From: Kocuria sp. cx-455
GTDB lineage: Bacteria > Actinomycetota > Actinomycetes > Actinomycetales > Micrococcaceae
Length of the DNA: 64,000 nucleotides
Assembly (NCBI RefSeq): GCF_014698015.1
Contig: NZ_JACXBS010000003.1
Span: 1-64,000 of the forward strand
Direction of reading: 5' to 3'
Part shown: one piece after another, positions 2,702 through 34,966 of the stretch
Layout of the letters: each line of letters begins with the position of its first letter
Numbering within the stretch: position 1 is the stretch's first letter
Made by a program: the position numbers and the translations under genes
Notes under the pieces: generated by a model
What the model saw: only the letters and a program-made list of their open reading frames with translations
Told to the model about the DNA's origin: nothing
Database searches by the model: none

Positions 2702-4378
2702 TCAGGAAATGACCTTCCCCGGATTCAAGTTGTTTCCGGGATCCGTGCTGGAAAACAGCGCACGCATGAGGTTCGCGCCCTCCGGGGAGATGTCCTGCGC
2801 CATCCATGGCTGGTGTTCCAGGCCCACACCGTGGTGGTGGGAGAGTGTTCCTCCATTGTCGATGAACGCCTGCTGGATAGCGTTCTTGACGGTGTGGTAT
2901 TCGTCGTACGGGTTCTCGTCGTCATAGACGTAACCGAACGTGAAGTACAGGCACGCCCCGGAGTGATAGGAATGGGACATGTGCGACATGATCCATCCCT
3001 TCTTCCCCAGCGATGCGTAAGCGCGTTCCGCGGCGTCGTAGACGGCCTTGTGCACGGTGGTGAGTTTGGACCACGGAGCAGCGGTTTCGGACACGTCACC
3101 CACGGTGTCCTGCTCGAGCAGGAAGTCACGCAGGTAAGGGGTGTCGAATTTCTTCTGGTCGTACAGGGCACCGGGACCTGAACCGAGCACAATGGCTCCG
3201 TTCTTCTTGGCGATGCCGGCCACCGCCTTCTTGCGTGTCTCCACGTCCTTGGGTGAGCCCTCGAAGCACACGTAGGAGATGCACATGTCATCCGTGTCCC
3301 AACCGCGCTTTCGCATGATGGCCCACAGTGCGTCCTGGCCCTTGGCCGCGAGCTTGCCCTTGCGCGACGTCGGCTTCTTCTGCGTCGCGAGCGAGAACGC
3401 TGTCTCATGGGCGTCCGAGATCCGCGCGAAGGTGAGCGGGATCTCGGCCTCCGTGAATTGCCGGACAGCGGTGAGCGCCTGCTGCCACGTGGGGTACATG
3501 TACGCGATGACCTGGTGCTTTTCCGGCAGCCGGTGCACGTGAACGGTCAGTTCCGTGATGATGCCCAGCCGGCCCTCGGAGCCGATGATCATCTCCCGCA
3601 GGCTCGGACCGGTGGAGGTTGACGGCAACGGACGCAGCACCACGGTGCCCGTGGCCCGGACCATGCGCAGACCGCGAATAATGTCCGCGATGTCCCCGTA
3701 CTTGTCCGATTGCATGCCGGAGGAACGAGTCGCCGCCCAGCCACCGAGGGTGGAGTACGTGAACGAATCGGGGAAGTGGCCCAGGGTCCAACCGCGGGCG
3801 TTGAGTTGCTCCTCCATGTCGGGACCGAGAACGCCGGCTTGAATGGTGGCGAGCCCGGAGGTCTCGTCGATGGCGAGAACCTTGTTGAGCCGCCCCAGGT
3901 CCACGGAGACAATGCACCGCTCCTCCGACGGATCCGGTTGCAGGCTGCGGGAAATGCTGCTGCCGCCACCGAAGGGAATGAGCACCAGATCGTGCTCGAC
4001 GGCCGCGCGCATGAGGGCCGCAATGTCGTCTTCGGTTCCGGGATAGACCACGACGTCCGGGACGCGGTGAAAATCGTTGCGCAGAGTCTGCAGGAGCTCC
4101 ACCACGGATTTGCCGGCCCAGTGGATCACGCGCAGTTTGTCGTCGGTACTGACGTTGTCCGCTCCGTTGATCTCGCGCAGCAGCTCAAGAACATGGTCCG
4201 GAGCCTGGGACACGGGGACGCGCGCGGTCGCGAAGTCCACGGTGTCCCGCTCGCGCGGTCGCAGGGTCACTCCGATGGCTTCCTTGACGAAAGGAGCAAA
4301 GGCGGGCTTGTTCTCGTAATTGAAGAAAACGCCTTCTTCGCCCCAGCCCCACCATTTCTGGTGTTTCACATGTGCCAC
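2702..4378 (-). CDS. FAD-dependent alkyl-DHAP synthase-like oxidase (AGPS family)
   Basis: 558-aa flavoenzyme of the vanillyl-alcohol oxidase/FAD_binding_4 type. The FAD-binding stretch runs from VVVYPGTEDDIAALM to IPFGGGSSISRSL (about 109-146). AGPS-typical features are visible: an N-terminal KWWGWGEEG, the segment YSTLGGWAATRSSGMQ (209-223) followed by KYGDI, and a C-terminal TLSHHHGVG with a triple histidine at about 514-516. In known alkyl-DHAP synthases this His-rich loop is essential for swapping the acyl group of acyl-DHAP for a fatty alcohol. Those features argue against a simple lactate or glycolate dehydrogenase. It is the last gene of a leftward operon, 29 bases after the acyltransferase and behind an SDR reductase, and a fatty-acyl reductase lies in the divergent set. 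An ether-lipid role is inferred. Confidence 0.82.
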   Translation of the reverse strand: MAHVKHQKWWGWGEEGVFFNYENKPAFAPFVKEAIGVTLRPRERDTVDFATARVPVSQAPDHVLELLREINGADNVSTDDKLRVIHWAGKSVVELLQTLRNDFHRVPDVVVYPGTEDDIAALMRAAVEHDLVLIPFGGGSSISRSLQPDPSEERCIVSVDLGRLNKVLAIDETSGLATIQAGVLGPDMEEQLNARGWTLGHFPDSFTYSTLGGWAATRSSGMQSDKYGDIADIIRGLRMVRATGTVVLRPLPSTSTGPSLREMIIGSEGRLGIITELTVHVHRLPEKHQVIAYMYPTWQQALTAVRQFTEAEIPLTFARISDAHETAFSLATQKKPTSRKGKLAAKGQDALWAIMRKRGWDTDDMCISYVCFEGSPKDVETRKKAVAGIAKKNGAIVLGSGPGALYDQKKFDTPYLRDFLLEQDTVGDVSETAAPWSKLTTVHKAVYDAAERAYASLGKKGWIMSHMSHSYHSGACLYFTFGYVYDDENPYDEYHTVKNAIQQAFIDNGGTLSHHHGVGLEHQPWMAQDISPEGANLMRALFSSTDPGNNLNPGKVIS

Positions 4379-4407
4379 TGCCGTGTGACCTCTTTCCTCG
4401 GGGGTGT

Positions 4408-5247
4408 TCAGTCCTGAATCTTGTTCCGATTCGAAGCGTACAGTGCGCGAACCGCCGCTTCGATGCGTTCGTTGAACCCCGTGACTGTTTCGTTTCCGCG
4501 TGCTCGCAAGGGTGCTCCCACCGCCACGACCACGGGTGGCCTACCGGGACGAGGCCAGCTGGAGTCCTTGGGCATGGCCTCGTGAGCGCCGATCAACGCC
4601 ACGGGAACCACGGGAACCTCGAGTGAGTGGGCCAGGCTGGCCGCGCCCACCTTGAAGGGTGCCATCTTGCCGGTCTTGGAACGCGTTCCCTCGGGGAAGA
4701 TCAGGATGGGTATTCCCGCGGCCAGCAACTTCTTGGACAGCCCGCGGTTGGCGCCGGTTCCGGTGCGGTCGATCGGGAAGGCATTGAAAATCAGCTGCGT
4801 GAACAGCTTCTTGTACCACGCCGTGAAGAAGTAGTCGGCGGCCACACCGGTGGCCAAATCACGGGAGATGTAGCGGGGTACGCCGCTCATCACGAGCGGC
4901 GCGTCCAGGTGGCTCGAATGATTGGCCACCACCACGCACCCGCCCTTGACCCCGTAGGCGGCGGGATCCACCACGTCGGTGCGGGTGATCAGGCGGTTGA
5001 CCAGGCCCTTGAAAAAAATGGTCTGCGCACTCTTCCGAGCAATCCTGCGACCCACATGTGTGTAGTAGGCGGTGCCCACCTTGGCGGAATCTGCAGGCGG
5101 AGCGGGGGGCGCGGGGTCGGCCTGGGCCACGGGCCCCTCGAGCGACTCCATGATCTGGGGACGTTCAATGGGCTGGCGAGGTTGCTTGCCGCGCGGGCGG
5201 TTGTTCCCTTCGCGGGGAGCGTCGGACGGCTTGTTGTCGGATGCCAT
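4408..5247 (-). CDS. 1-acyl-glycerol-3-phosphate acyltransferase-like protein (PlsC family)
   Basis: 279-aa LPLAT-superfamily acyltransferase. Block I NHSSHLD (about 109-115) holds the catalytic His-Asp pair and block III FPEGTRS (184-190) binds the glycerol phosphate. The first 60 or so residues are a basic, proline-rich, probably disordered extension not needed by the family. It starts 4 bases after the SDR stop codon and ends 29 bases before the AGPS-like gene, so the three are very likely cotranscribed. Family members acylate lysophosphatidate; in this context it could acylate DHAP or alkyl-glycerol phosphate. The actual acceptor cannot be read from the sequence. Confidence 0.85.
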   Translation of the reverse strand: MASDNKPSDAPREGNNRPRGKQPRQPIERPQIMESLEGPVAQADPAPPAPPADSAKVGTAYYTHVGRRIARKSAQTIFFKGLVNRLITRTDVVDPAAYGVKGGCVVVANHSSHLDAPLVMSGVPRYISRDLATGVAADYFFTAWYKKLFTQLIFNAFPIDRTGTGANRGLSKKLLAAGIPILIFPEGTRSKTGKMAPFKVGAASLAHSLEVPVVPVALIGAHEAMPKDSSWPRPGRPPVVVAVGAPLRARGNETVTGFNERIEAAVRALYASNRNKIQD

Positions 5248-5251
5248 GGGA

Positions 5252-6034
5252 TCAGGCCGCCTTCTCGCGCTTGCGTGCCCCGGAGACCTGACGTGAGATC
5301 CAGCGCACCGCGGGGCGCGGAAGGTGGCGCAGGGCCGTGTACACCGCCTTGTAGCGTGCGGCGGGGATCGAGAGGATCTTGCCCCGGGCGACGTCGTCGA
5401 GGGCCTTGTCCGCGACGACGTCAGCGGTGAGCCACATGAAGTTCGGGATCGAGGACCCTGCGATACCGGCGCGGCTGTGGAACTCCGTGCGCACCCAGCC
5501 CGGCAGAACCGCGGTGACCTGCACTCCCGTGCCGTGCAGCTCGACCGCCAGGGACTCTGTCATGGAGGTCACGTAGGCCTTGATGGCTGAGTACTCACCC
5601 ATGGTGACGCACCCGGCAATGGAGGCGATATTGACGATCCACCCCGTGCCGCGCTCAGTCATGGAACGGCCGGCGGCGCCGGACAGCAGAGCCACGGCGC
5701 GGCACATGACATCCATGCCCGCATCGTGCGGGGAGAAATCCTCGGCCAGGAAGGGGGTGCCCACCGAGAATCCGGCGTTATTGATGAGGAGGTCCACGGG
5801 ACGAGTCGTGTCCGCGAGTCGTTGGGCCACCCGTTCCACATCATGACGGTCGGACAGATCCGCCGCCATGACGTCCACATGAATGCCGTGCTCACCGGTT
5901 AATGCCTCGGAAACTTCTCGAAGTCGATTTTCATTGCGGGCCACCAAGATCAGGTTGAAGCCCTTGCGGGCTAACGAGCGTGCGAACGCGGCTCCCAGGC
6001 CTGACGTTCCACCGGTCACAAGAGCGGTAAGCAT
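5252..6034 (-). CDS. Short-chain dehydrogenase/reductase
   Basis: 260-aa classical SDR. The nucleotide-binding TGGTSGLG (7-14), NNAG (85-88), the active-site Ser in NIASIAG (Ser138) and YSAIK (Tyr148/Lys152) are all intact. A GTG at 6049 would add five residues, but the ATG at 6034 gives the usual MLTALVTGG start. It is first in the leftward operon SDR - acyltransferase - AGPS-like enzyme, the position where a reductase for the keto group of acyl- or alkyl-DHAP would fit; that substrate is an inference. The upstream region is shared with a divergent gene and holds a small inverted repeat. Confidence 0.85.
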   Translation of the reverse strand: MLTALVTGGTSGLGAAFARSLARKGFNLILVARNENRLREVSEALTGEHGIHVDVMAADLSDRHDVERVAQRLADTTRPVDLLINNAGFSVGTPFLAEDFSPHDAGMDVMCRAVALLSGAAGRSMTERGTGWIVNIASIAGCVTMGEYSAIKAYVTSMTESLAVELHGTGVQVTAVLPGWVRTEFHSRAGIAGSSIPNFMWLTADVVADKALDDVARGKILSIPAARYKAVYTALRHLPRPAVRWISRQVSGARKREKAA

Positions 6035-6048
6035 GCCACTAAGATACA

Positions 6049-6063
6049 CTACGGTAGGCGTAG
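6049..6063. promoter_or_regulatory. Candidate operator in the divergent lipid promoter
   Basis: Inverted repeat CTACG-N5-CGTAG between the divergently transcribed SDR and ferritin-like genes. On the minus strand a possible -10 (GTATCT) lies next to it, close to the SDR start codon. A TetR regulator is the last gene of the rightward set, so this is a plausible binding site, but the arms are only 5 bp and no second copy was recognised. Confidence 0.3.
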
Positions 6064-6125
6064 CGATTTGTGTTCATGACCCCCCACGAGCACGCGCGTT
6101 CGCCCCGAATTATCGAGGAGGGACA

Positions 6126-7013
6126 GTGGCAGAGGAGTCCTACCTGGCATTGCACCGAAAGGGCAGGCTCTACGGGCCCACGGACCAGGACCTTGTCCTG
6201 CGAACCCCCTTTGAGGTCCAACAATTCACCATCGACGCGCAGGGCAGTCTGCGCGCAGAAATTGATACGAACGCCTTTCGGAACAACCCGTTGAGCCCCC
6301 AACGGCTCCGGGTACTGCGCTACCTGTGGGAGATCGAACGGTCCACCATGGGTCAGATCCGCCACGTGGTGGTCGGCTACACGAATAAGGAATCGCGAGT
6401 CGCCGCGTTCCTCACCACGTGGGCGTACGAGCGCCACTGGATCGCCGATGCCTATCAGGCCGTCCTCGAGGCTCACGGGGTGGATCTCTCCGATCCCGTG
6501 GACCAGGGCCACCAGTTCCTGGAGCGTGTCGAGAAGTCGCTGGACAACCTGGCACCCATGATCGATTCCGTGTGGACCAATCTTTTCGGCGAGGATGTCG
6601 TGGCCGGGTACATGGCGCGTGGCTGGTCACGCGAAGCCAGTATGCGTGCCGCGCTCGCCGCGTTCGACGCCGTCGCGAGCCACCCGGAGCTCTCGGCTCT
6701 TCTGGAGCGCGTGGCCGAGATCAAGACCGTCCATGAACGGTTCTTCGCCGCGGAGACCAGTGAACGGGGGCGGCACTCACCACGAGCCGCCGCATTCGCC
6801 CGTCGCTACGTGAAGAACGGTTTCAACCCCCTGCGACCGGCGGGTACCTCCAGGAAGAGCTTCCGGGAATTCATTCGGCACGTGTGCCCCACCGTGCGGG
6901 AGACCCGCCTGCTGCTGCACCGCGCGGACGATCCGTTGCAGTACTCGCCGGGGACGGCCGGTACGGAACCGCTGCGCCGAGCCCTCGAACGTGACCACGT
7001 GGTGAACCGCTAG
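6126..7013 (+). CDS. Ferritin-like protein with lost metal ligands (pseudo-enzyme)
   Basis: 295-aa helical protein that aligns by eye with the diiron protein encoded at 9374-10189. The aligned segments are LWEIERST, WAYERHWIADAYQAVLEAHG, MARGWSREAS and LLERVAEIKTVHERFF. Of the six ligands in the partner, Glu71, Glu170 and His203 are kept, but the second-helix ExxH has become Arg103/Ile106 and the last Glu is Lys200. A normal diiron centre is therefore unlikely. The GTG at 6126 is chosen because GAGGAGGGA precedes it at a good distance; the open frame reaches further back only by overlapping the divergent SDR gene. A structural or regulatory partner for the intact paralogue is the favoured reading. 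Confidence 0.7.
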   Translation: MAEESYLALHRKGRLYGPTDQDLVLRTPFEVQQFTIDAQGSLRAEIDTNAFRNNPLSPQRLRVLRYLWEIERSTMGQIRHVVVGYTNKESRVAAFLTTWAYERHWIADAYQAVLEAHGVDLSDPVDQGHQFLERVEKSLDNLAPMIDSVWTNLFGEDVVAGYMARGWSREASMRAALAAFDAVASHPELSALLERVAEIKTVHERFFAAETSERGRHSPRAAAFARRYVKNGFNPLRPAGTSRKSFREFIRHVCPTVRETRLLLHRADDPLQYSPGTAGTEPLRRALERDHVVNR

Positions 7014-7111
7014 GCTCTTTTCTGAATTGATGGATCCCAGGGCCGGTGACTACCCGGTCTGATCTCCACGCGACAATCATGCCCGAACATTCCTACATCC
7101 GGAGGAACCCG

Positions 7112-9370
7112 TTGACCCAGACCACCACCAAGCGCGTCCTGCTCACAGGAGCCACCGGTTTCCTAGGGCAAGCCGTCCTGGAACGCCTGCTGTCCAGCCA
7201 CGAGGATATTCACGTGACCGCGGTGATCCGCGCCAAGGGGTCTTTGTCCGGGCAGGCTCGCCTCAAACAACTGTTGCGTAAGCCGGTGTTCAAGACGTGG
7301 CGTGAATCCGTGGGCAAGGAACGGGCCGAAGAAATCTTCGCAGAGCGCACCAGCGTTCTCGAGGGTGATCTCACGGGCTTGGCCGGGATCACGGAACCGT
7401 TCGACGTGGTGGTCCACTCCGCATCGACCGTGTCCTTCGACCCGCCCATTGACGAAGCCTTCAAGACCAACGTGGGCGGCGCCGTGGGCCTGTACGAATC
7501 CCTGCGCGCAACCGGCCAGGACCCGCACGTGGTGCACGTGTCAACGTGCTACGTGGGTGGTATCGCCAAGGGGTTGCGCCCCGAAGCGCCCGTGGACCAC
7601 AACGTGGACTGGAACGTCGAGTTCGACGCTGCGGTTCGCGCCGCAGACACGGCTCAGGTGGAATCCCGCTCACCCGAACGGTTGCAGTCCTTCATTGGAA
7701 AGGCCACCTCCCAGTTCGGTAAGGAGGGTCCCAAGTCCGTGGCCCGCGCCGCGGAGGAAGCTCGGCAGGCATGGGTTCGGCAACGCCTTGTCGACCACGG
7801 CCGAACCCGTGCACAGTCGTTGGGGTGGACCGATATTTACACCTTCACCAAGGCGCTGGGCGAGCGAGTTGCGGAGGAGAAGTGGGCCGGCGCGGGGCAC
7901 CAACTGTCCATCGTGCGCCCGGCCATCATCGAGTCCGCACTGCGCTACCCGTTCCCCGGCTGGATCGACGGCTACAAGGTGGCCGATCCGCTCATCATGG
8001 CCTATGCCAAGGGCGCACTGCCAGAATTCCCCGGTCTGCCGGATTCCGTGCTCGACGTGATCCCGGTCGATTTCGTGGTCAACGCGATCGTGGCCCTGGT
8101 GACCCAGGGGCACCGCGCGCCCTCGGGCGAGCTGACCGAGGAAACGGATGTGGACCCGCAGGCCGCCTACTACCAAGTGTGCTCGGGTGCGTCGAATCCG
8201 CTGCCGTTCCACCAGATGTACGAAAACGTGCGTGAGTTCTTCCGGGCGCAGCCGCTCGAGGATTCCCACGGCAACCCCATTGCCGTTCCCGAGTGGAAGT
8301 TCCCGGCCAATAACGCGGTGGAGCGCGGGCTCGCTCTCAAGGAGAAACTCGCGGCCGCCGGCGGCAAGCTCAGTGCCGTCCTGCCGGCCACAGCGCGAAC
8401 CCGGGAGTGGACCAACTCCCTGCACCGCATGCAGACGGGCTTGGGCTCACTGCGAACCTACGTGGACCTGTACCAGAACTACACGCGCACCGAGATGATC
8501 TTCGACGACACCCACACGCGTCAATTGGACCGGGCGCTGCCGGAGTCCGCACCCGAGGACCAGCACTTCGATCCGCGGGGCATTGACTGGCGGGACTACT
8601 GGCAGAACGTGCACCTGCCCGCCCTCACCGAAATGACCCGCGCATACGGCCGGTTGAAGGCCGCGTCCCGCAAGCGGGAAACCCGCCCGCGCGCACTCAA
8701 ATCCGGAACCGATGTGGTGGCGGTCTTCGACCTCGAGGGCACCGTGGTGTCCGGCAACATCATCACCCAGTACGCCAAGCTGCGCCGCAGGGAACTCAGC
8801 CCGATGCAGTGGCCCGGTGAGATCACCGAACTGCTCGGCAATGCTCCCACGTACGTCAAGGCCGAACGCCGAGACCGCGGCGAGTTCATCCGCGCGTTTT
8901 TGCGCCGCTACGAAGGCGTGTCCGTGGACCGGGTGGCGGAACTCATGAACGGCTCCATGGGCCGGGCCATGGAGAAGGGCCTGCGACCCGGTGCCCTCGC
9001 CCGAATCGAAGAGCATCGCGCGGCCGGTCACCACACAGTGTTGGTCACCGGTTCCCTGGACCTGCTGGTCAGCCCCATTGCGCACCTGTTCGACCACGTG
9101 GTGGCGGGCCGGATGGAAGTCACCGACGGCAAGCTCACCGGTTACCTGGCCACCCCGCCGCTCGTGGACGAGGCCCGCGCCCAGTGGCTTAAGCGCTACG
9201 CGGAGGAGAACGGGTTCGACCTGAGCCGCTCCTACGGTTACGGAGACTCGGTGGCCGACGCCAGTTGGCTGTCCCAGGTGGCTCACGCGCACGCCGTGAA
9301 CCCCGATCTGCCCTTGTACCGGCGGGCCAAGAAATCGCACTGGCCCATTGAGGACTGGAGGAAAGCCTGA
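7112..9370 (+). CDS. Fatty-acyl-CoA reductase-like extended SDR fused to an HAD-IB phosphatase-like domain
   Basis: 752-aa two-domain protein. Residues about 5-400 form an extended SDR/male-sterility-type reductase: TGATGFLG binds NAD(P)H, and the active-site pattern is YTFTKALGE. From about 530 an HAD-IB domain follows: FDLEGTVVSG (the usual second Asp of DxDxT is Glu), VTGSLDLLVSP and YGYGDSVADASWL. The TTG at 7112 has GGAGGA five bases upstream; an earlier ATG (7079) and GTG (7046) lack such a site. Fatty-acyl reductases of this type make fatty alcohol or aldehyde. The HAD part may remove a phosphate or be structural. It is followed after 3 bases by the diiron protein gene. Confidence 0.78.
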   Translation: MTQTTTKRVLLTGATGFLGQAVLERLLSSHEDIHVTAVIRAKGSLSGQARLKQLLRKPVFKTWRESVGKERAEEIFAERTSVLEGDLTGLAGITEPFDVVVHSASTVSFDPPIDEAFKTNVGGAVGLYESLRATGQDPHVVHVSTCYVGGIAKGLRPEAPVDHNVDWNVEFDAAVRAADTAQVESRSPERLQSFIGKATSQFGKEGPKSVARAAEEARQAWVRQRLVDHGRTRAQSLGWTDIYTFTKALGERVAEEKWAGAGHQLSIVRPAIIESALRYPFPGWIDGYKVADPLIMAYAKGALPEFPGLPDSVLDVIPVDFVVNAIVALVTQGHRAPSGELTEETDVDPQAAYYQVCSGASNPLPFHQMYENVREFFRAQPLEDSHGNPIAVPEWKFPANNAVERGLALKEKLAAAGGKLSAVLPATARTREWTNSLHRMQTGLGSLRTYVDLYQNYTRTEMIFDDTHTRQLDRALPESAPEDQHFDPRGIDWRDYWQNVHLPALTEMTRAYGRLKAASRKRETRPRALKSGTDVVAVFDLEGTVVSGNIITQYAKLRRRELSPMQWPGEITELLGNAPTYVKAERRDRGEFIRAFLRRYEGVSVDRVAELMNGSMGRAMEKGLRPGALARIEEHRAAGHHTVLVTGSLDLLVSPIAHLFDHVVAGRMEVTDGKLTGYLATPPLVDEARAQWLKRYAEENGFDLSRSYGYGDSVADASWLSQVAHAHAVNPDLPLYRRAKKSHWPIEDWRKA

Positions 9371-9373
9371 GCC

Positions 9374-10189
9374 ATGGCCTTCGACATCGACAAGTTCGCA
9401 GAAACATCCCAGCGAGTGAAATGGGCCGACCTGGACATGGGCGAGTTCGTCACTCGTCCGCTGCCCGAGGACACCCTGCGCTGCCTGCGGTACATGTGTG
9501 ATGTGGAGTACCACACCGTGTGTTACATGCGTGACATGTTGGTGACTCCTTCGCACCAGGACAGGGACGTCTCCACGTTCATGACGATGTGGAACCGGGA
9601 AGAGTACTGGCACGGTGAAGCGCTGGCGGAGGTCCTGGGCCTCCACGGCATCGTGGTCGACTACGACGAGCTGAAGGCGAAGCGCATGAAACTCGGTTGG
9701 TCCGAGGCGCTCAAACCCCTCAAACAGTCGTTACTGTCCAACATGGTCGGGGCCGATTTCATTGCAACCCACATGGCGTGGGGCGCGGCCAACGAATGGT
9801 CCGCGGTCGCCGCCTACCGGCGATTGGCGAACCTCGAGAAGCACCCCGTGCTTGCTGTGCTGCTCAACCGGATTGCCGCCCAGGAATCGCGTCACGTGGC
9901 CTTTTACGCGACCCAGGCACGACGCCGCCTGGAATCCTCTCGCAAGGCCCAGCGCCTCACACGGTTCGCCCTGCGAAAATTCTGGGCCCCCGTGGGTTCG
10001 GGCGTCATGGACCCGGGCGAGGTGGACCACGTGATGGGCAAGCTTTTCGGCGGGCCGGACGGCTCCCATGAAATCGATCGACTGGACCATAATATTGCCA
10101 GGTTGCCGGGCATGGCCGGTCTGCGGATCTTCCACGATGCCACCGCTCGCGCCCGCGCGGGCCATCGGACCAGAACCGCCCCGGCCTAA
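9374..10189 (+). CDS. Ferritin-like diiron protein (acyl-desaturase/oxygenase type)
   Basis: 271-aa four-helix-bundle protein with a complete carboxylate-bridged diiron ligand set: Glu45 (DVEYHT), Glu77-x-x-His80 (EYWHGE), Glu141 (AANEWS) and Glu171-x-x-His174 (ESRHVAFY). The spacing of two E + ExxH repeats is that of soluble acyl-ACP desaturases and related oxygen-activating enzymes. The gene starts 3 bases after the reductase/HAD gene with GGAGGAAA upstream, and TetR starts 2 bases after its stop, so coupled translation is likely. O2-dependent desaturation or oxidation of a lipid made by this locus is inferred; the substrate is unknown. Confidence 0.75.
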   Translation: MAFDIDKFAETSQRVKWADLDMGEFVTRPLPEDTLRCLRYMCDVEYHTVCYMRDMLVTPSHQDRDVSTFMTMWNREEYWHGEALAEVLGLHGIVVDYDELKAKRMKLGWSEALKPLKQSLLSNMVGADFIATHMAWGAANEWSAVAAYRRLANLEKHPVLAVLLNRIAAQESRHVAFYATQARRRLESSRKAQRLTRFALRKFWAPVGSGVMDPGEVDHVMGKLFGGPDGSHEIDRLDHNIARLPGMAGLRIFHDATARARAGHRTRTAPA

Positions 10190-10191
10190 GC

Positions 10192-10788
10192 ATGGTGGCT
10201 GATTCCCCGGTGTCCCAGCAGAGCCCGGCACCGGACCCCCGTACCGCTCGCACGGATCGGAAGATCCTGGCGGGTGCGGTGAAGTTGCTGCGAGAGTTCG
10301 GCCCCCAGAAGGTCACGATCGAGGCGGTGGCCGTGATCTCCGGGGTGGCCAAAACCTCGATCTATCGCCGCTACAACAACAGCGACGAATTGCTGGAAGC
10401 CGCCCTGGAGCACGTCAATACCGAACTGCCCCCGGTATCGCCCGGTTCGGGGAATTGGGAGGAGTCCATGCGCTCGGCCATCGAGGTGCTGTTCGAGGAC
10501 ATGGGTAAGGGGTTGGTTCTGACGCTTCTCCAGGACCCGCACTCCACCACCTCGGAGGTCCTGCGGCGAAAAATTATCGGGCCCCGTATGGAACTCCTCA
10601 GGGATCTGTTGCGGCGAGACCAAGAACTCGGCCTGATTCGGAAAAACGTGGACCTGGATGTGGTCATTGATTTCATGCTGGGGGCCTCTTACGCGCACGT
10701 GGCGAGATACGGCAGCCTGGGTGAGGCGTGGCCGAGTCGGGTTCACGCCACACTGGCCAATCTGGTGGCCGTCAAACCCGTTGAATGA
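10192..10788 (+). CDS. TetR/AcrR-family transcriptional regulator
   Basis: 198-aa repressor with the N-terminal TetR helix-turn-helix: ILAGAVKLLREFGPQKVTIE, then VAKTSIYRRYNNSDELL. The C-terminal ligand domain is divergent, as usual. It starts 2 bases after the diiron protein stop codon, so it belongs to the rightward lipid operon and probably controls it and the divergent SDR operon. Acyl-CoA or fatty-acid derived ligands are common for TetR proteins next to lipid genes, but none can be named here. Confidence 0.85.
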   Translation: MVADSPVSQQSPAPDPRTARTDRKILAGAVKLLREFGPQKVTIEAVAVISGVAKTSIYRRYNNSDELLEAALEHVNTELPPVSPGSGNWEESMRSAIEVLFEDMGKGLVLTLLQDPHSTTSEVLRRKIIGPRMELLRDLLRRDQELGLIRKNVDLDVVIDFMLGASYAHVARYGSLGEAWPSRVHATLANLVAVKPVE

Positions 10789-10948
10789 GCGGGATTGCAA
10801 TGCCCGTGATCTCGGGATCAGTGTGACCACGATGACGACTATGAAGTTTTGGGTCGGGCGATTCGATCTCCGCTCCACTGACCTCTTACGGTGAGATGCG
10901 TTGCCGTTGCCGCGGCGACTCCATTCCATGACAGTCCAGGAGTATCGC

Positions 10949-11908
10949 GTGACATCGTCATCCACCGCCGCGCCCGCGGGGACCGAGCAATCGGAGCTAC
11001 CGCCCGTTGAATCGGATCGGCGCCCGGACGCATTGACCGTGGTCCCCACCCGCAACCCATGGCGTTGGGTGGGCACCGCGCTGGTGGCCGTGGTGCTGGT
11101 CGGTATCGGGTGGTCACTGTTCACCAACCCGCGATGGCAGTGGGACGTGGTGGCGCAATGGCTGACCGCCGAATCCGTGATCACCGCCCTGGGCAACACC
11201 TTGCTGCTCACGGCGATCGCGGCCGTGGGCGGATTCGTCCTGGGTTTCTTCCTCGCGCTGATGAGAATGTCCAGCTCGGGTTTGCTGTCCTCGGTGGCGT
11301 GGTTCTACATCTGGATCTTCCGCTCGGTGCCGTTGCTGGTGCAATTACTGCTCTGGTACAACGTGGGGTACCTCTACGAGGTCATCAGTGTGGGCATCCC
11401 CGGAACGGACGTCACGTTCTTCCAGGCGCCGACCACGGACATTGTCAACAAGTTCGGCGCCGCGGTCCTGGGTCTGACGTTGCACCAGGCCGCGTACTCC
11501 GCAGAGATCATCCGCGGTGGCATTCTGGCGGTGGATCAAGGTCAACAGGAGGCGGCGGCGTCGTTGGGTATCCCGCGCTGGCGCCGTTCCACCCACATTG
11601 TGCTGCCCCAGGCGCTGCGGTCCATCCTGCCACCGGCGTTCAACGAGATCATCAGTCTGGTCAAGGGCACCTCGGTGGTTTACGTGCTCGCCTACAACGA
11701 GCTCTTCTACACGATCCAGGTGATCTACGCCCGCACCAACGAGGTCATCCCCATGCTCCTGGTGGCCACGCTGTGGTACGTGATCATCACGACCGTCCTC
11801 AACATCATTCAGTACTACGTGGAGCGACACTTTGCGCGCGGTGCGGTGCGAACTCTTCCGCCCACGCCGCTGCAGCGGCTGCGTTCCCGCCTGGGAGGCG
11901 CACGATGA
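10949..11908 (+). CDS. Polar amino-acid ABC transporter permease
   Basis: 319-aa inner-membrane permease of the HisM/GlnP type. A hydrophilic N-terminal tail of about 35 residues precedes roughly five to six membrane segments. The EAA loop QEAAASLGIPRWRRSTHIVL followed by LPPAFNEIISLVKGTS contacts the ATPase. The GTG at 10949 is favoured (CAGGAG six bases upstream); an ATG at 10928 is possible. It heads an operon with the ATPase (ATGA overlap) and a family 3 binding protein. Confidence 0.88.
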   Translation: MTSSSTAAPAGTEQSELPPVESDRRPDALTVVPTRNPWRWVGTALVAVVLVGIGWSLFTNPRWQWDVVAQWLTAESVITALGNTLLLTAIAAVGGFVLGFFLALMRMSSSGLLSSVAWFYIWIFRSVPLLVQLLLWYNVGYLYEVISVGIPGTDVTFFQAPTTDIVNKFGAAVLGLTLHQAAYSAEIIRGGILAVDQGQQEAAASLGIPRWRRSTHIVLPQALRSILPPAFNEIISLVKGTSVVYVLAYNELFYTIQVIYARTNEVIPMLLVATLWYVIITTVLNIIQYYVERHFARGAVRTLPPTPLQRLRSRLGGAR

Positions 11909-12738
11909 GTTCCACCGCCAAGGATCAGAAGAAAGCGCGCCACCACGATGACCGTCCGACCAAGGGACACGTGGTGATCGAGAACGTCCACAAGTCCTTC
12001 GGGGACGTGCGTGTGCTCAAGGGCGTGAGCCTGGACATCAAACCCGGTGAGGTCGCCGCGATCCTGGGTCCCTCGGGCTCCGGAAAGTCCACTCTGCTGC
12101 GCACGGTCAATCATCTGGAGAACATCGACGCTGGCCGCATCACCATCGACGGCAAAATGGTCGGTTATGAACAGCGCGGTGACAAACTCTACGAATTGCA
12201 CGAAAAGGAGATCCTGCGCCGGCGCACGAACGTGGGTATGGTCTTCCAACAATTCAACTTGTTCCCGCACCTGCGAGTTCTGGACAACGTGATGGAGGCG
12301 CAGGTCTCCGCGCTGGGGCGTTCCAAGGCCGAGGCGCGGGAGAAGGCCCGTGAACTACTCAAGCGCGTGGGCCTGGCGGACAAGGAACGGGCATTCCCCC
12401 GGCAACTCTCCGGTGGTCAACAGCAGCGCGTGGCCATTGCGCGCACCCTCGCCCTGGACCCGGCCGTGGTGCTGTTCGACGAACCCACCTCGGCATTGGA
12501 TCCCGAGCTGGTCGGGGAAGTACTCGATGTGATCCGGGACCTCGCGTCCCAGGGCGTGACCATGCTGGTGGTGACGCACGAGACGAGTTTCGCGCGCGAC
12601 GTCGCCGACACCGTGATCTTCATGTCCGACGGCGTGGTGGTGGAACAAGGACCACCGCGCGAGGTGTTCTCGGCGCCGAAGCACGAACGGACCCGGGCGT
12701 TCCTGGGGTCGGTCCTGGAACCGGCGTACAACCTGTGA
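11905..12738 (+). CDS. Polar amino-acid ABC transporter ATP-binding protein
   Basis: 277-aa ATPase of the GlnQ/HisP family. Walker A GPSGSGKST, signature LSGGQQQR, Walker B VVLFDEPTSALD and the switch histidine (VVTHE) are all canonical. The ATG overlaps the permease stop by four bases (ATGA), with GGGAGG upstream. A longer open frame reaching back inside the permease gene is an artefact of overlapping reading frames. The first 20 residues are a basic tail before the conserved IENVHKSFGD. Confidence 0.93.
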   Translation: MSSTAKDQKKARHHDDRPTKGHVVIENVHKSFGDVRVLKGVSLDIKPGEVAAILGPSGSGKSTLLRTVNHLENIDAGRITIDGKMVGYEQRGDKLYELHEKEILRRRTNVGMVFQQFNLFPHLRVLDNVMEAQVSALGRSKAEAREKARELLKRVGLADKERAFPRQLSGGQQQRVAIARTLALDPAVVLFDEPTSALDPELVGEVLDVIRDLASQGVTMLVVTHETSFARDVADTVIFMSDGVVVEQGPPREVFSAPKHERTRAFLGSVLEPAYNL

Positions 12739-13700
12739 GCCGCGGCATGGACCGTCGCACGGTGCTGCGCGCGGCCGGGCTGGGCGGCCTGGGACTGCTG
12801 AGTCTGGCGGCGTGCACCCAGCCCGAGCAGCCCCAGCCGACCCGCGAGGACGGCGTACCGTTCGACCTGAGTCCCGAACAGAACAGCCGGGTCCGCTCCG
12901 ACGTGGATCCTGCTGCGCGGGCCCTGTTGCCGGAGAGCATTGCCGCCGCCGGTGTGCTCACCGTGGGGGTGCTCAATACCTCGCCGCCGCTCTCGTTCAG
13001 TGCAACCGATGACGTCACACCGATTGGTTCAGAGGTGGATACCGCCTACCTCGTTGCCGACAAATTGGGGCTCGAACTGAACCCGCAAGTGACATCGTGG
13101 GAGAACTGGCCGCTCAAACTGGGTGCCCACGAGTATCACGCGACGTTCGCGAACGTGGGGGTCACCGAGCCCCGGCTCAAACTCTACGATTTTGCGACCT
13201 ACCGCGCGGCCTACATGGGTTTCCTGGCTCGCAAGGGGCAGGGCCCGGTGGTGGAAACCCCGGACGATATCTCCGGACGAAAACTCTCGGTCACACCGGG
13301 CACCAACCAGGAAAAAATCGTGATGGCGTGGAACGAGCAACTGCGGGCGCAGGGCAAGGAACCGGCCGCACTCGACTTGTATCTCGACAACACGAATGCG
13401 GTGCTCGCCCTAGCAGCCGGGCGTATCGACTACTACCTGTCGCCGTTTCCCACGGGCTCGTATTACGCGGCCACCCGCGACGACCTGGAGGTCAGGGGCA
13501 AAATCAGTGCGGGCTGGCCCAAATCCACCCTGGTCGCGGCCACGACCCTCAAGAACTCCGGTTTGGCCAGGCCTTTCCAAGCGGCACTGCAATCGGCGAT
13601 CACGTCCGGTCAATACCGGGCCGCACTCACGCGGTGGGGACTGGAAGAGGAGTTCCTGCCGGAGTCGCTGATCGTCACCGAGAAGACGGGCATGCCCTAG
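12735..13700 (+). CDS. Family 3 amino-acid-binding lipoprotein of the ABC importer
   Basis: 321-aa extracellular solute-binding protein. The N terminus has a twin arginine (DRRTVLRAAG), a hydrophobic stretch and the lipobox LAAC, so it is predicted to be exported (perhaps by Tat) and lipid-anchored. The mature part shows the family 3 pattern LTVGVLNTSPPLSF, ADKLGLE and GRIDYYLSP. The GTG start overlaps the ATPase stop by four bases (GTGA). Linked permease and ATPase of the polar amino-acid class support the role; the actual ligand is unknown. Confidence 0.87.
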   Translation: MSRGMDRRTVLRAAGLGGLGLLSLAACTQPEQPQPTREDGVPFDLSPEQNSRVRSDVDPAARALLPESIAAAGVLTVGVLNTSPPLSFSATDDVTPIGSEVDTAYLVADKLGLELNPQVTSWENWPLKLGAHEYHATFANVGVTEPRLKLYDFATYRAAYMGFLARKGQGPVVETPDDISGRKLSVTPGTNQEKIVMAWNEQLRAQGKEPAALDLYLDNTNAVLALAAGRIDYYLSPFPTGSYYAATRDDLEVRGKISAGWPKSTLVAATTLKNSGLARPFQAALQSAITSGQYRAALTRWGLEEEFLPESLIVTEKTGMP

Positions 13701-13719: not shown

Positions 13720-14997
13720 CTAGAAGACGTCCTTTTCGTCGGGGCGCGACGACAATTGCGACTTCACGTAGTCCTTGACCGCATTGGGGGTCGCAACGTC
13801 CTTACCCGCTTTTTCGGACATGAACCAACGGTGCTCCAGAACCTCGTGAACAATTTCCGCGGGTTCGAGCTTGCGCCGCATCTCGGCCGGAACCGCCTCC
13901 ATGATGGGTACGAAGATCTCCCGCATCCATAACTGTGCCGTGAGATCCTCGGGAAGCCCCGGGTACAGCGCCTGTCCGAACTGCCCAATGTCCGTGAGGA
14001 TGCGGCGGGCCTGATTCTCGTGGGTGTCCAATCCCGTGAGGTGCAGTAACCGACGCGCATGGTGACCGGGTTCGACCACTCGGGGACGCAAATGCACCTG
14101 CCCCGAATCATCGGACTCCAGCGAGGCCTCCTCCACATCGAAGCCCAGCTCATTCAGCCGCTCCACCCTGGCCTGCACCCGCCACCGCTCATCCAGGGCG
14201 AAACTCTCCTCGGCGGTGAGTTCCTCCCACAGGTTGGTGTAGGTGCTGACCAGGCGGTCCGAGATCTCGAACGGGTCCACGCCGTCCGGGGTCATCCCCG
14301 CGTGTTCGAGCCGGCTCTGCATGTCCTCACCGGCCAGCAGGTCCATGATCTCACCCGCCACATTGGTGCGGGCCAGGTCTATGTCGTAGTCGCGCTGACC
14401 GCGAGAAAGTTCATTGTGGATCTCACCGGTTTCGGCATCCACGAGGTACGCGGCGAAATGCCCGGCGTCGCGGCGGAACAACGTGTTCGACAGGGACACA
14501 TCACCCCAGTAGAACCCTGACAGGTGCAACTGGACGATCAGGGACGCCAAGGCATCCACGAGCAGCTCGACCGTCCACGGTGAGGGGACCTGTTCGAAGA
14601 TCGCCCGGTACGGCAGGGAAAAGCTCAGATGATCCGTCACGAGCGCGGCGGGTAGTGGTTCGCCCTGCTCGGTGAAACGGTTGGTGACCACCGAGTCCGG
14701 TGTGACCGAGGGCGCGCCCATGCGCAACAGCCGCCGCAACAGCCCGTACTCCCGCTGTGCGTAGTGGGGCGTGGTTTCCTTGACCGCCACCACCTTGGAA
14801 CCCACGTGCGCGAACCGCACCACGTGGCGAGAGATCCCTCGGGGATACGCGGCCAGTACCTCGGGCGGCCACTCCTCGAGAGGGACGTGCCACGGCAGAT
14901 CCAACAAAGCCGGGTCAGGGAACGCGGTATTGATCGAGACCCGCCGGGAACCGGGGGACACGGGGGAATCGAGTGGTTGTGCCGGGGAGGCGTTCAT
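13720..14997 (-). CDS. DUF4032 protein with a kinase-like fold, in the trehalose operon
   Basis: 425-aa protein recognised as DUF4032, related to lipopolysaccharide-kinase folds. Kinase-like landmarks are visible: VVAVKETT with a likely ATP-binding Lys, a downstream QREYGLL Glu, a catalytic-loop-like YWGDVSLSNTLF and a metal-binding-like LVDAETGE. The ATG is one base after the otsB stop codon, so it is cotranscribed with otsA and otsB. No substrate is known to me. A sugar kinase or a regulator of trehalose metabolism are both possible. Its end is only 19 bases from the convergent binding-protein gene. Confidence 0.75.
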   Translation of the reverse strand: MNASPAQPLDSPVSPGSRRVSINTAFPDPALLDLPWHVPLEEWPPEVLAAYPRGISRHVVRFAHVGSKVVAVKETTPHYAQREYGLLRRLLRMGAPSVTPDSVVTNRFTEQGEPLPAALVTDHLSFSLPYRAIFEQVPSPWTVELLVDALASLIVQLHLSGFYWGDVSLSNTLFRRDAGHFAAYLVDAETGEIHNELSRGQRDYDIDLARTNVAGEIMDLLAGEDMQSRLEHAGMTPDGVDPFEISDRLVSTYTNLWEELTAEESFALDERWRVQARVERLNELGFDVEEASLESDDSGQVHLRPRVVEPGHHARRLLHLTGLDTHENQARRILTDIGQFGQALYPGLPEDLTAQLWMREIFVPIMEAVPAEMRRKLEPAEIVHEVLEHRWFMSEKAGKDVATPNAVKDYVKSQLSSRPDEKDVF

Positions 14998-32952: not shown

Positions 32953-33020
32953 TATTTTCGGTCAGTAGATCACCCACGCCGTAACAAGTCGGGCACTGCG
33001 CATTGCAGGGCCCGACCTGT

Positions 33021-33047
33021 CGTGCGGGCGGTCACACCGCCCGCACG
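33021..33047 (+). terminator. Hairpin closing the fructose PTS operon
   Basis: Perfect 12-bp stem CGTGCGGGCGGT / ACCGCCCGCACG with a three-base loop. A weaker GTCGGGC/GCCCGAC stem lies just upstream (32988-33016). There is no T-run, so efficiency is uncertain. The next gene starts 26 bases later. Confidence 0.6.
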
Positions 33048-33073
33048 GTCCGATTCGGGAGTACGGTGATGCC

Positions 33074-34966
33074 ATGGTGCGAATTCTCATTTTGGCTGCC
33101 CTCGTCGTGGCGGTGCTCGTCACCGTGACGGCCGCGGTGTTCGGCCCCTGGGGATGGTGGATCCCCGCCGTGATTTTCATCCTGCTGCTGCTCGTGGGGA
33201 TCCGTGACGCCACCCAACGGCGGCACGCGATCCTGCGGAATTTTCCGGTGCTTGGGCGTGCGCGGTTCTTCCTGGAGGAGATCCGTCCCGAAATCCAGCA
33301 GTACTTCATTGAGCGCAACTGGGACGGCAAACCGTTCAACCGCGATCAGCGCTCGCTGATCTACTCGCGCGCCAAGGGTTTCAAGGGCGACAAGGCCTTC
33401 GGCACGGAACTCAATGTCAATCAGCCCGGTTACGAATATTTCGTCCAGTCCATTGCGCCCAAGGCCGCTCCCGAAGTGGAGCACCGCGTGCGCTTGGGTG
33501 GTCCGGACTGCACACAGCCCTACGACGCGTCACTGCTCAACATTTCCTCCATGAGCTTCGGATCGCTGTCCAAGAACGCGGTGCTCGCCATGAACAAGGG
33601 CGCTGCGCAGGGAGGTTTTGCGCAGGAAACCGGTGAAGGCGGGCTCACCAAGTACCACCTGCAGTACGGCGCCGACCTCATCTGGGAATTCGGCTCCGGG
33701 TACTTCGGCGCTCGCACCGCGGACGGCCACTTCGACCCGGAGAAGTTCCGGGAGAAGTCCAACACGGAACAGGTCAAGGCCGTTACCATCAAGCTGTCCC
33801 AGGGTGCCAAGCCGGGCCTGGGCGGCGTGCTGCCCGGTACCAAGGTCACCGCGGAGATTGCCGAAGCTCGCGGGGTACCCGAGGGGGAGACCTGTATTTC
33901 CCCGGCCAGCCACTCCGCCTTCACCACACCCCGTGAGCTGGTGCGCTTCATTGCGCAGCTGCGTGAGCTGTCCAACGGAAAGCCCATCGGCTTCAAGCTG
34001 TGCATCGGTTCACGCGTGGAGATCCTGGCCATCTGCAAGGCCATGATCGAGGAGAAGATCACCCCGGACTTCATTATTGTCGATGGTTCCGAGGGCGGCA
34101 CCGGCGCCGCCCCTCTCGAGTACCAGGATCACGTGGGTACACCGCTGACCGAGGGTGTCATCCTGCTGCACAACGCCCTGGTCGGTTCCGGTCTGCGCGA
34201 CCGGATCAAGATCGGCGCCGCGGGGAAGGTCATCTCCGGACACGACATTGTGCGTCACATCATTCAGGGCGCGGACTTCTGCATGAGCGCCCGCGCCATG
34301 ATGATGGCCGTCGGTTGCATCCAGGCTCAGAAATGTCACACGAACAAGTGCCCCGTGGGCGTGGCGACTCAGGATCCGCGGCTGTACCAGGCCTTGGACG
34401 TCGATTCCAAGGGTGACCGGGTGGAGCGCTACCACCGCCTGACCGTTGAAGAGACCGGGCAGATCATCGCCACCATGGGCTGTGAGCGCCCGGAGCAGAT
34501 GACCCGCGAGATGCTGCGCCGTCGGATCACCGCGACGGAGAGTATCTCCTACGAATCGCTGTATCGCTGGCTCGGACGCGGTGAACTGTTCGAGGGCGTG
34601 GAAGGTGGCTGGGGCGAGGACTGGGATTACGCCAGCCCGGATCGTTTCACCGCCGGGCATCCGGGCAAATATGTGTACAACGACCGCACCGAATTCACGG
34701 GCCGGGGCGAAGCCGCGGCGGGCCGCGACATGGCCATGGCCGGCGCGAACCAGGGTTCCGTCTCGGCCACCGCGCGCGGCCGGGCCGCCGCACCAACGCG
34801 GGCGGCGGCTCAGGGCACGGGGCAGAGCAATGCGGGCGCGACCAACCGCCCCGAGGGACAGCCCGGCACGGTGTCCGGTGCCCAGCACACGGTGCAGGAC
34901 CCCGGTACTAGTGAGGACCACGTGGATCCCGGGGACGAGGACAGCGTCAGCCCGGACGTAGACTAG
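33074..34966 (+). CDS. Membrane-anchored glutamate synthase-like FMN/Fe-S protein
   Basis: 630 aa. Two N-terminal membrane segments (about 4-42) precede a domain of the GltB FMN-binding family: NISSMSFGSLSKNAV, GEGGLTKYHL, KPGLGGVLPG, VDGSEGGTGAAPLEY and GKVISGHDIV. The Fe-S motif CIQAQKCHTNKCPVGVAT provides the three cysteines of a 3Fe-4S cluster. There is no glutaminase (class II amidotransferase) domain, so it is not a complete glutamate synthase. It belongs to the FMN-binding glutamate synthase-related family, whose function is poorly defined. The last 100 residues are Ala/Gly/Thr-rich and probably disordered. It appears to be monocistronic. Confidence 0.85.
   Translation: MVRILILAALVVAVLVTVTAAVFGPWGWWIPAVIFILLLLVGIRDATQRRHAILRNFPVLGRARFFLEEIRPEIQQYFIERNWDGKPFNRDQRSLIYSRAKGFKGDKAFGTELNVNQPGYEYFVQSIAPKAAPEVEHRVRLGGPDCTQPYDASLLNISSMSFGSLSKNAVLAMNKGAAQGGFAQETGEGGLTKYHLQYGADLIWEFGSGYFGARTADGHFDPEKFREKSNTEQVKAVTIKLSQGAKPGLGGVLPGTKVTAEIAEARGVPEGETCISPASHSAFTTPRELVRFIAQLRELSNGKPIGFKLCIGSRVEILAICKAMIEEKITPDFIIVDGSEGGTGAAPLEYQDHVGTPLTEGVILLHNALVGSGLRDRIKIGAAGKVISGHDIVRHIIQGADFCMSARAMMMAVGCIQAQKCHTNKCPVGVATQDPRLYQALDVDSKGDRVERYHRLTVEETGQIIATMGCERPEQMTREMLRRRITATESISYESLYRWLGRGELFEGVEGGWGEDWDYASPDRFTAGHPGKYVYNDRTEFTGRGEAAAGRDMAMAGANQGSVSATARGRAAAPTRAAAQGTGQSNAGATNRPEGQPGTVSGAQHTVQDPGTSEDHVDPGDEDSVSPDVD

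Follow-up and report, generated by a model that had tools for sequence, protein, structure and literature searches.

The 64,000-nucleotide window analyzed here (positions 1 to 64,000, forward strand, of contig NZ_JACXBS010000003.1, assembly GCF_014698015.1) is the start of contig 3 in the 3.06-Mb genome of Kocuria sp. cx-455. Between positions 2,702 and 10,788, it carries seven genes in two divergent runs, SDR–PlsC–AGPS leftward and di1–FAR/HAD–di2–TetR rightward. We propose that this locus encodes an animal-like, aerobic route from dihydroxyacetone phosphate (DHAP) to 1-O-alkyl glycerolipids, with desaturation by a diiron protein pair (di1/di2) and regulation by TetR at a palindrome in the divergent promoter. 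We assign this model as a whole a probability of approximately 0.72; the formation of alkyl ether lipids by the locus is its most secure part and highly probable, while formation of a vinyl ether by di2 is a tentative assignment somewhat short of even odds. The features of the locus are as follows.

2702..4378, minus strand: AGPS-like FAD enzyme, 558 aa (PDB matches, conserved residues, tree)
4408..5247, minus strand: PlsC-type acyltransferase, 279 aa (PF01553, 75.6 bits), with a putative GNPAT-like role
5252..6034, minus strand: short-chain dehydrogenase (SDR), 260 aa (adh_short), putative acyl/alkyl-DHAP reductase
6047..6065, no strand: operator-like palindrome CACTACG-N5-CGTAGCG in the divergent promoter, presumed TetR target
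6126..7013, plus strand: di1, diiron-fold paralog with replaced ligand positions, 295 aa
7046..9370, plus strand: fusion of a fatty-acyl reductase (FAR; NAD_binding_4/Sterile-like, PF07993) with a HAD-IB phosphatase-like domain (PF12710), 774 aa
9374..10189, plus strand: di2, soluble diiron protein with six ligands, 271 aa, candidate alkyl-ether desaturase
10192..10788, plus strand: TetR-type regulator, 198 aa (PF00440, 36.1 bits; PF16859, 33.3 bits)

The flavoenzyme and its companions across Actinobacteria

All seven genes named in an original prediction made from the DNA letters alone were recovered by gene calls and family matches (FAD_binding_4/FAD-oxidase_C, Acyltransferase, adh_short, NAD_binding_4 plus HAD, TetR), and the SHHHGVG and GGWAATRSSGM segments it had pointed to were both found in the flavoenzyme. 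Compared with PDB chains, the flavoenzyme scored 368 bits to AGPS from Dictyostelium and 278 bits to mammalian AGPS; the next enzyme was glycolate oxidase with 85 bits. According to a review, R352, R447, and Y508 of Dictyostelium AGPS are important by mutagenesis (PMC3509576). They correspond to R319, R417, and Y478 of the window protein, in which the HHH motif at positions 514-516 is also kept. A tree of 30 rows separated an AGPS side from a GlcD side with 100/100 support; the three residues and HHH were conserved in 24 of 24 AGPS-side rows, and the six GlcD-side rows shared the last His alone among those positions. This tree gave a long-branch warning for guinea-pig AGPS, and it is uncertain where within the AGPS side the animal row belongs. 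Judged by its sequence, the flavoenzyme is an AGPS and is predicted to replace the acyl group on DHAP with an alkyl group. If it were a hydroxy-acid dehydrogenase instead, the cluster would be a general lipid operon; FAD_binding_4/FAD-oxidase_C is common to GlcD, and the top NCBIfam match of the protein is indeed GlcD, at 142 bits versus a cut-off of 568 bits. The PDB scores of 368 versus 85 bits, the tree split, and the retained AGPS residues make this reading highly improbable and led to rejection of a GlcD/lactate type; scores and tree place the protein apart from the lactate/glycolate dehydrogenases, the grouping that had been named as speaking against the prediction.

Conservation of the locus was analyzed in a scan of named genomes comprising the best 80 of 309 AGPS relatives, to which all locus counts refer; loci at contig ends (e.g., L023 and L035) were scored as being without genes that possibly lie beyond. 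The nearest named relatives by AGPS protein were a Kocuria metagenome-assembled genome (96%) and K. carniphila (95%). An SDR like that of the window was located ≤3 kb from AGPS in 79/80 loci, the FAR-HAD fusion in the fetched stretch of 76/80, and a PlsC match of >90 bits in 73/80. The loci span Kocuria, Propioniciclava, Frigoribacterium, Streptomyces, Brachybacterium, Subtercola, Agreia, Brevibacterium, Jiangella, Salinibacterium, Microlunatus, and others, by which a Kocuria-only distribution was rejected. Chance does not account for the locus, as the set is found again in 80 related loci of many genera; with SDR, FAR-HAD, and PlsC beside AGPS in most of them, we consider an alkyl-glycerolipid pathway very likely. 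The Subtercola locus additionally carries a DagK-type kinase, a second PlsC, and a Lar_N (lactate-racemase N-terminal domain) protein (L051, 1-4025; L045).

The companion enzymes were assigned at differing resolution. PlsC scored 66.4 bits to TIGR00530, under the cut-off of 102.95. The best PDB matches of the SDR, which is 59% identical to its Subtercola counterpart, were generic SDRs, and its top-scoring NCBIfam model was a mycolate reductase, far under its cut-off. FAR-HAD scored 155.9 bits to PF07993 (cut-off 20.1) and 117.6 bits to PF12710, whereas the Sterile domain at the C terminus of the FAR part stayed under its cut-off (32.3 versus 35.4 bits). The best PDB match of the fusion was the fatty acyl-CoA reductase 7eoz (169 bits), and it is 53% identical to the fusion of Subtercola; the match is to FARs of the Male-sterility type, which are alcohol-forming. 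Each step of the animal pathway has a candidate at the locus, as had been predicted, with the counterparts of GNPAT and of the acyl/alkyl-DHAP reductase mapped at the superfamily level only.

The di1/di2 pair and reported acetals

The ferritin-like protein that had been described as intact corresponds to di2, in which all six diiron ligands (E45, E77, H80, E141, E171, and H174) are kept; they are conserved in 44/44 rows. In 46 rows of di1, three of these positions are replaced (E77 by K/R in 45, H80 by I/L in 44, and E171 by K/R in 44 rows) and three are mostly retained (E45 in 45, E141 in 42, and H174 in 36 rows). The earlier term "degenerate paralogue" is misleading in so far as these replacements are conserved and consistent, by which a decaying pseudogene was rejected. 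In all 43 di2-bearing loci, di2 was accompanied by di1.

The family-library search returned weak matches only for di2 and no match for di1. With 20.2 bits, di2 remained under the cut-off (22.7) of Pfam FA_desaturase_2 and is not filed as a member; PF10520 (Lipid_desat, PEDS1/CarF) matched neither protein, and a PDB profile search with A1 gave no significant match. The predicted fold of di2 was nearest to soluble acyl-ACP (acyl carrier protein) desaturases (1afr, 4v0j, and 1za0; 14-19% identity), and di2 shares with them the fold and the diiron ligand set. Among the fold matches of di1, the desaturase fold ranked first; they included chains 2inp_D and 1t0q_B, presumably the metal-free chains of multicomponent monooxygenases. 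In phenol hydroxylase and toluene/o-xylene monooxygenase, a catalytic subunit is combined with a metal-free paralog of the same fold.

A second di2/di1 pair, its di2 being 62% identical, is located on contig 6 of the window genome (G000, 33014-34560; L120, 7015-8600), where no AGPS, FAR, or PlsC was recognized among the neighbors examined. In several genomes, di2 is found at a distance from the AGPS locus. A tree of di1 and di2, for which a long-branch warning was given (window di1 and others), showed the same grouping in its di1 and di2 parts for two triplets and one pair of locus and elsewhere copies, and several stand-alone pairs nested among locus pairs. In K. rosea and Brachybacterium endophyticum, the stand-alone pair complements an AGPS locus of the same genome.

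Dimethyl acetals (DMA), a methanolysis product of plasmalogens, are their usual sign. For Subtercola vilae DB165T, 17.0% i-16:0, 3.2% a-15:0, and 1.9% a-17:0 DMA are reported; the same description gives DMA for S. frigoramans, S. boreus, and S. lobariae. In Agreia it puts acetals at ≤4%, and its Table 3 lists acetals >5% as ND for this genus (PMC5945732). A 15:0 anteiso aldehyde/DMA peak is reported for Frigoribacterium faeni (PMC12823222). The sampled loci include that of the analyzed strain S. vilae DB165T itself (L045) and that of F. faeni (L041), and, matched at species level, those of S. boreus (L040, L047, and L050), S. lobariae (L051), and Agreia pratensis (L055); AGPS, PlsC, SDR, FAR-HAD, di1, and di2 were all present at these loci. 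PF09989, a region of PlsA used here as its marker, was found neither in the window genome nor in the eight genomes tested of these taxa (five of Subtercola, one of F. faeni, and two of Agreia). The search was positive in 4/14 controls and in 1/24 genomes tested, that of Propioniciclava tarda. Three Subtercola species, F. faeni, and Agreia thus combine reported acetals with the complete set and no PlsA marker, and on this basis we tentatively assign vinyl-ether formation to di1/di2.

From gene identities, AGPS residues, ligand conservation, and co-occurrence, each of them present in the sequences themselves, we infer all enzymatic steps as well as a di1/di2 complex and its substrate. The FAR domain would form the alcohol by reduction of a branched fatty acyl thioester, while DHAP would be acylated by PlsC. 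AGPS would then exchange the acyl group for the alcohol, and the resulting alkyl-DHAP would be reduced by the SDR to alkyl-glycerol 3-phosphate for phospholipid synthesis. The HAD domain would act as a lipid-phosphate phosphatase at some point of the route. In strains with di2, the alkyl chain would be desaturated by catalytic di2 together with di1 as broken-metal-site partner, most likely at carbon 1' to yield plasmalogens. The pair may then represent a third, independent plasmalogen-forming enzyme, consisting of a soluble diiron protein of the acyl-ACP desaturase fold and a broken-site paralog, that adds the 1' double bond to AGPS-made alkyl lipids; we regard this as possible, with the balance leaning slightly against it.

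The aerobic formation of plasmalogens, via CarF/PEDS1, is ascribed to animals and myxobacteria and perhaps to Leptospira (PMC9131029). A complete AGPS-based locus in many actinobacterial genera would widen this picture, and di1/di2, if they act as proposed, would explain the acetals reported since 2000 in aerobic Actinobacteria such as Subtercola; with the pair, organisms with reported acetals have named candidate genes for the vinyl ether that can be deleted. AGPS homologs in Actinobacteria have been noted in environmental genomes (PMC11868695), and PlsA/R are present in other Actinobacteria (PMC9702350). In line with the earlier statement that no described actinobacterial cluster with this set was known, the open-license literature yielded, among the papers listed, no description of the AGPS cluster or of di1/di2, and no gene proposed for the actinobacterial acetals. 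In Kineococcus rubinsiae, a-15:0 DMA was identified by GC-MS, and the authors caution that the MIDI software had named this peak 14:0 2-OH (PMC7472656). Where other descriptions of Actinobacteria list much "14:0 2-OH", hidden plasmalogens may likewise be behind it.

Weighing the proposed desaturation

The distribution of AGPS and di2 was determined in 296 genomes of the class, using E values of 1e-190 or better for AGPS orthologs and 1e-75 or better for di2; weaker di2 matches (G226, G310, and G354) were excluded. AGPS orthologs were found in 35 genomes, di2 in 32, and both in 21. AGPS was present in 21/32 di2 genomes versus 14/264 others (Fisher p 2e-15, uncorrected for descent). Counted per genus (115 genera; AGPS in 9, di2 in 12, shared in 6), it occurred in 6/12 di2 genera versus 3/103 others (p 2e-5). 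Within 27 Kocuria genomes (G000-G026), 24 have AGPS and 16 have di2, 15 having both and 9 AGPS without di2, a contrast that provides a ready natural experiment. K. carniphila and K. marina belong to the species with AGPS and di1/di2, whereas K. salsicia has AGPS and no di2.

Several findings weigh against the proposed model. The association tests ignore phylogeny beyond genus. FAR-HAD is missing from 4/80 and a PlsC match from 7/80 AGPS loci, and 35/80 have neither di1 nor di2 in the fetched stretch; of the seven genes, SDR, FAR-HAD, and PlsC mostly stay with AGPS, and the diiron genes often do not. Conversely, 11/32 di2 genomes have no AGPS ortholog; seven of these possess a full FAR-HAD, two a weak match to the HAD region only, and two none. 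In six of the 32 (G064, G080, G130, G142, G207, and G278), no AGPS-like gene was found at E 1e-50 in a search that scored four candidates per genome, and a search scoring all candidates agreed for G064 and G080. Four of these six have a full FAR-HAD, and in G207 (L132) di2, PlsC, Lar_N, and FAR-HAD stand together with no AGPS found in the genome. Since di2 occurs in genomes without AGPS, it is not bound to AGPS. Its link may be to the fatty alcohol or to a different lipid, and ancestrally it may have acted on another FAR-derived or acyl lipid. As to the lipids, DMA can also derive from free aldehydes, and the F. faeni peak was named aldehyde/DMA. Among the genomes matched, none belonged to a species in which acetals had been measured as absent; F. 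endophyticum and F. salinisoli are reported without the acetal (PMC12823222), and neither is among the named loci. Open-license literature on Kocuria acetals or ether lipids contained no Kocuria lipid report among the matches listed, and a term search of the first 300,000 characters of a large actinobacterial taxonomy paper (PMC6113628) gave no mention of acetals or plasmalogens. The CarF/PEDS1 model PF10520 had no match in the window genome, the 296 class genomes, or ten Subtercola, Frigoribacterium, and Agreia genomes, an absence that is unproven as no control scored above the cut-off.

One alternative is that the core enzymes produce saturated alkyl ethers while di1/di2 desaturate or oxidize another substrate, e.g., the mid-chain of branched acyl or alkyl chains bound to ACP, CoA, or a phospholipid. 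Acyl-ACP desaturases, the closest folds of di2, act mid-chain; di2 without any AGPS in 6/32 genomes and its location away from the AGPS locus in several fit this view, as does the anteiso-15:1 reported in Kineococcus (PMC7472656). Full-locus taxa with acetals and without the PlsA marker would, however, still need another enzyme for the vinyl ether, and the nesting of stand-alone pairs among locus pairs, together with the complementing pairs of K. rosea and B. endophyticum, speaks against this view. We consider the mid-chain substrate doubtful but a credible contender. The vinyl ethers could also be made by an unseen enzyme of the CarF/PEDS1 or PlsA/R type, the locus then supplying the alkyl ethers only or nothing. 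This would be compatible with a CarF model that had no positive control above its cut-off and with the combination of AGPS and PlsA marker in P. tarda, but is unlikely in view of a PlsA marker absent from the other 23/24 genomes with positive controls, and of 0/296 and 0/10 genomes matched by the CarF model.

More improbable still is a hydrocarbon or aldehyde pathway in which FAR and di2 act like the cyanobacterial acyl reductase and aldehyde-deformylating oxygenase, the acetals then originating from free aldehydes. FAR-HAD and di2 do occur without AGPS in four sampled genomes, and the ligand pattern of di2 is common to ferritin-like oxygenases. FAR-HAD, however, stands beside AGPS in 76/80 loci, 31 of them without di1/di2 there, its FAR part is of the alcohol-forming type, and no deformylating oxygenase was among the 50 fold matches listed, which does not exclude one. 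Taken with the AGPS tests and the gene set, the ether-lipid part of the original prediction is well supported; its suggestion that the diiron protein adds the desaturation finds indirect support in the fold, the conserved partner, and the acetals of full-set taxa, and is countered by the six di2 genomes without AGPS.

In P. tarda, the PF09989 (PlsA-type) gene occurs in the same genome as an AGPS/FAR-HAD locus (L049; G119 contig 2, 264959), so that two ether-lipid routes may coexist in this organism.

Relation to known routes, promoter, and genomic setting

The animal peroxisomal pathway proceeds via GNPAT, AGPS, FAR1, and PexRAP, followed by PEDS1/TMEM189 (PMC9131029). The Kocuria locus resembles it in having an AGPS homolog with conserved catalytic residues, next to which an acyltransferase, an SDR, and a reductase of the FAR family are encoded. 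It differs by the arrangement in one locus, the PlsC-type acyltransferase, the FAR-HAD fusion, and a soluble desaturase-fold pair instead of a PEDS1-type protein (no PF10520 match, with the genome-search control not above cut-off). The MXAN_1676-1674 and elb operons of the aerobic Myxococcus xanthus, together with CarF, likewise combine AGPS with FAR and acyltransferase domains, and elb includes a HAD protein; there, FAR is joined to an acyltransferase or to ACS/ACP/AT (ElbD) and CarF desaturates, whereas Kocuria has FAR-HAD and the candidate di1/di2 (PMC9131029). With the anaerobic PlsA/PlsR route, the proposed role would share the plasmalogen end product, but the window genome has no PF09989 match and its route would be based on DHAP and AGPS rather than on acyl reduction (PMC9702350). 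Compared with soluble acyl-ACP desaturases, di2 has a similar predicted fold and ligand pattern but low identity, a score under the Pfam cut-off, and a constant broken-metal-site partner in AGPS loci. The di1 matches 2inp_D and 1t0q_B recall multicomponent monooxygenases; unlike in these, the desaturase fold ranked first and no gamma subunit or coupling protein was recognized in the locus.

The SDR probably starts at ATG 6034 rather than at 6049, and di1 probably at GTG 6126, preceded by a GAGGAGG-like site; with these starts, the gap between them is ~90 bp and contains the 19-bp palindrome. With ≤1 mismatch, the pattern CRCTACG-N5-CGTAGYG occurred in 20/80 loci, comprising 16/16 Kocuria loci (L005-L020), where it lies upstream of the SDR, and L059, L062, L065, and L076. 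In these last four, a relative of TetR scoring 77-81 bits is present, and L062 shows a second site close to it. The motif was missing from three more loci that have a TetR relative (L042, L045, and L083). The palindrome was absent from one set of shuffled loci, in which base composition only was kept. In the window genome, there are two exact sites in all, the other at C5:171550. As the pattern with two mismatches was enriched neither in the window nor in the genome (31 sites versus 82 for the reversed control), the evidence for the palindrome is its conservation and not its number. We infer that it is the operator at which TetR would act between the two operons.

A plasmid search found AGPS in four records and di2 in one of these, a 2.35-Mb Streptomyces replicon listed as a plasmid (NZ_CP109481.1, Streptomyces sp. 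NBC_01450, 1074780-1082732) in which AGPS and di2 lie ≤8 kb apart; this suggests that the AGPS/di2 locus may be mobile. The contig ends 0.1-4 kb past the AGPS gene in 15 Kocuria loci (L006-L020), and the window itself starts at a contig end (1-2700). Beyond TetR, the window encodes an ABC transporter that includes a solute-binding protein of family 3 (10901-13700), and after it a DUF4032 protein (13720-14997) that weakly matches a kinase-like (Kdo/WaaP) family.

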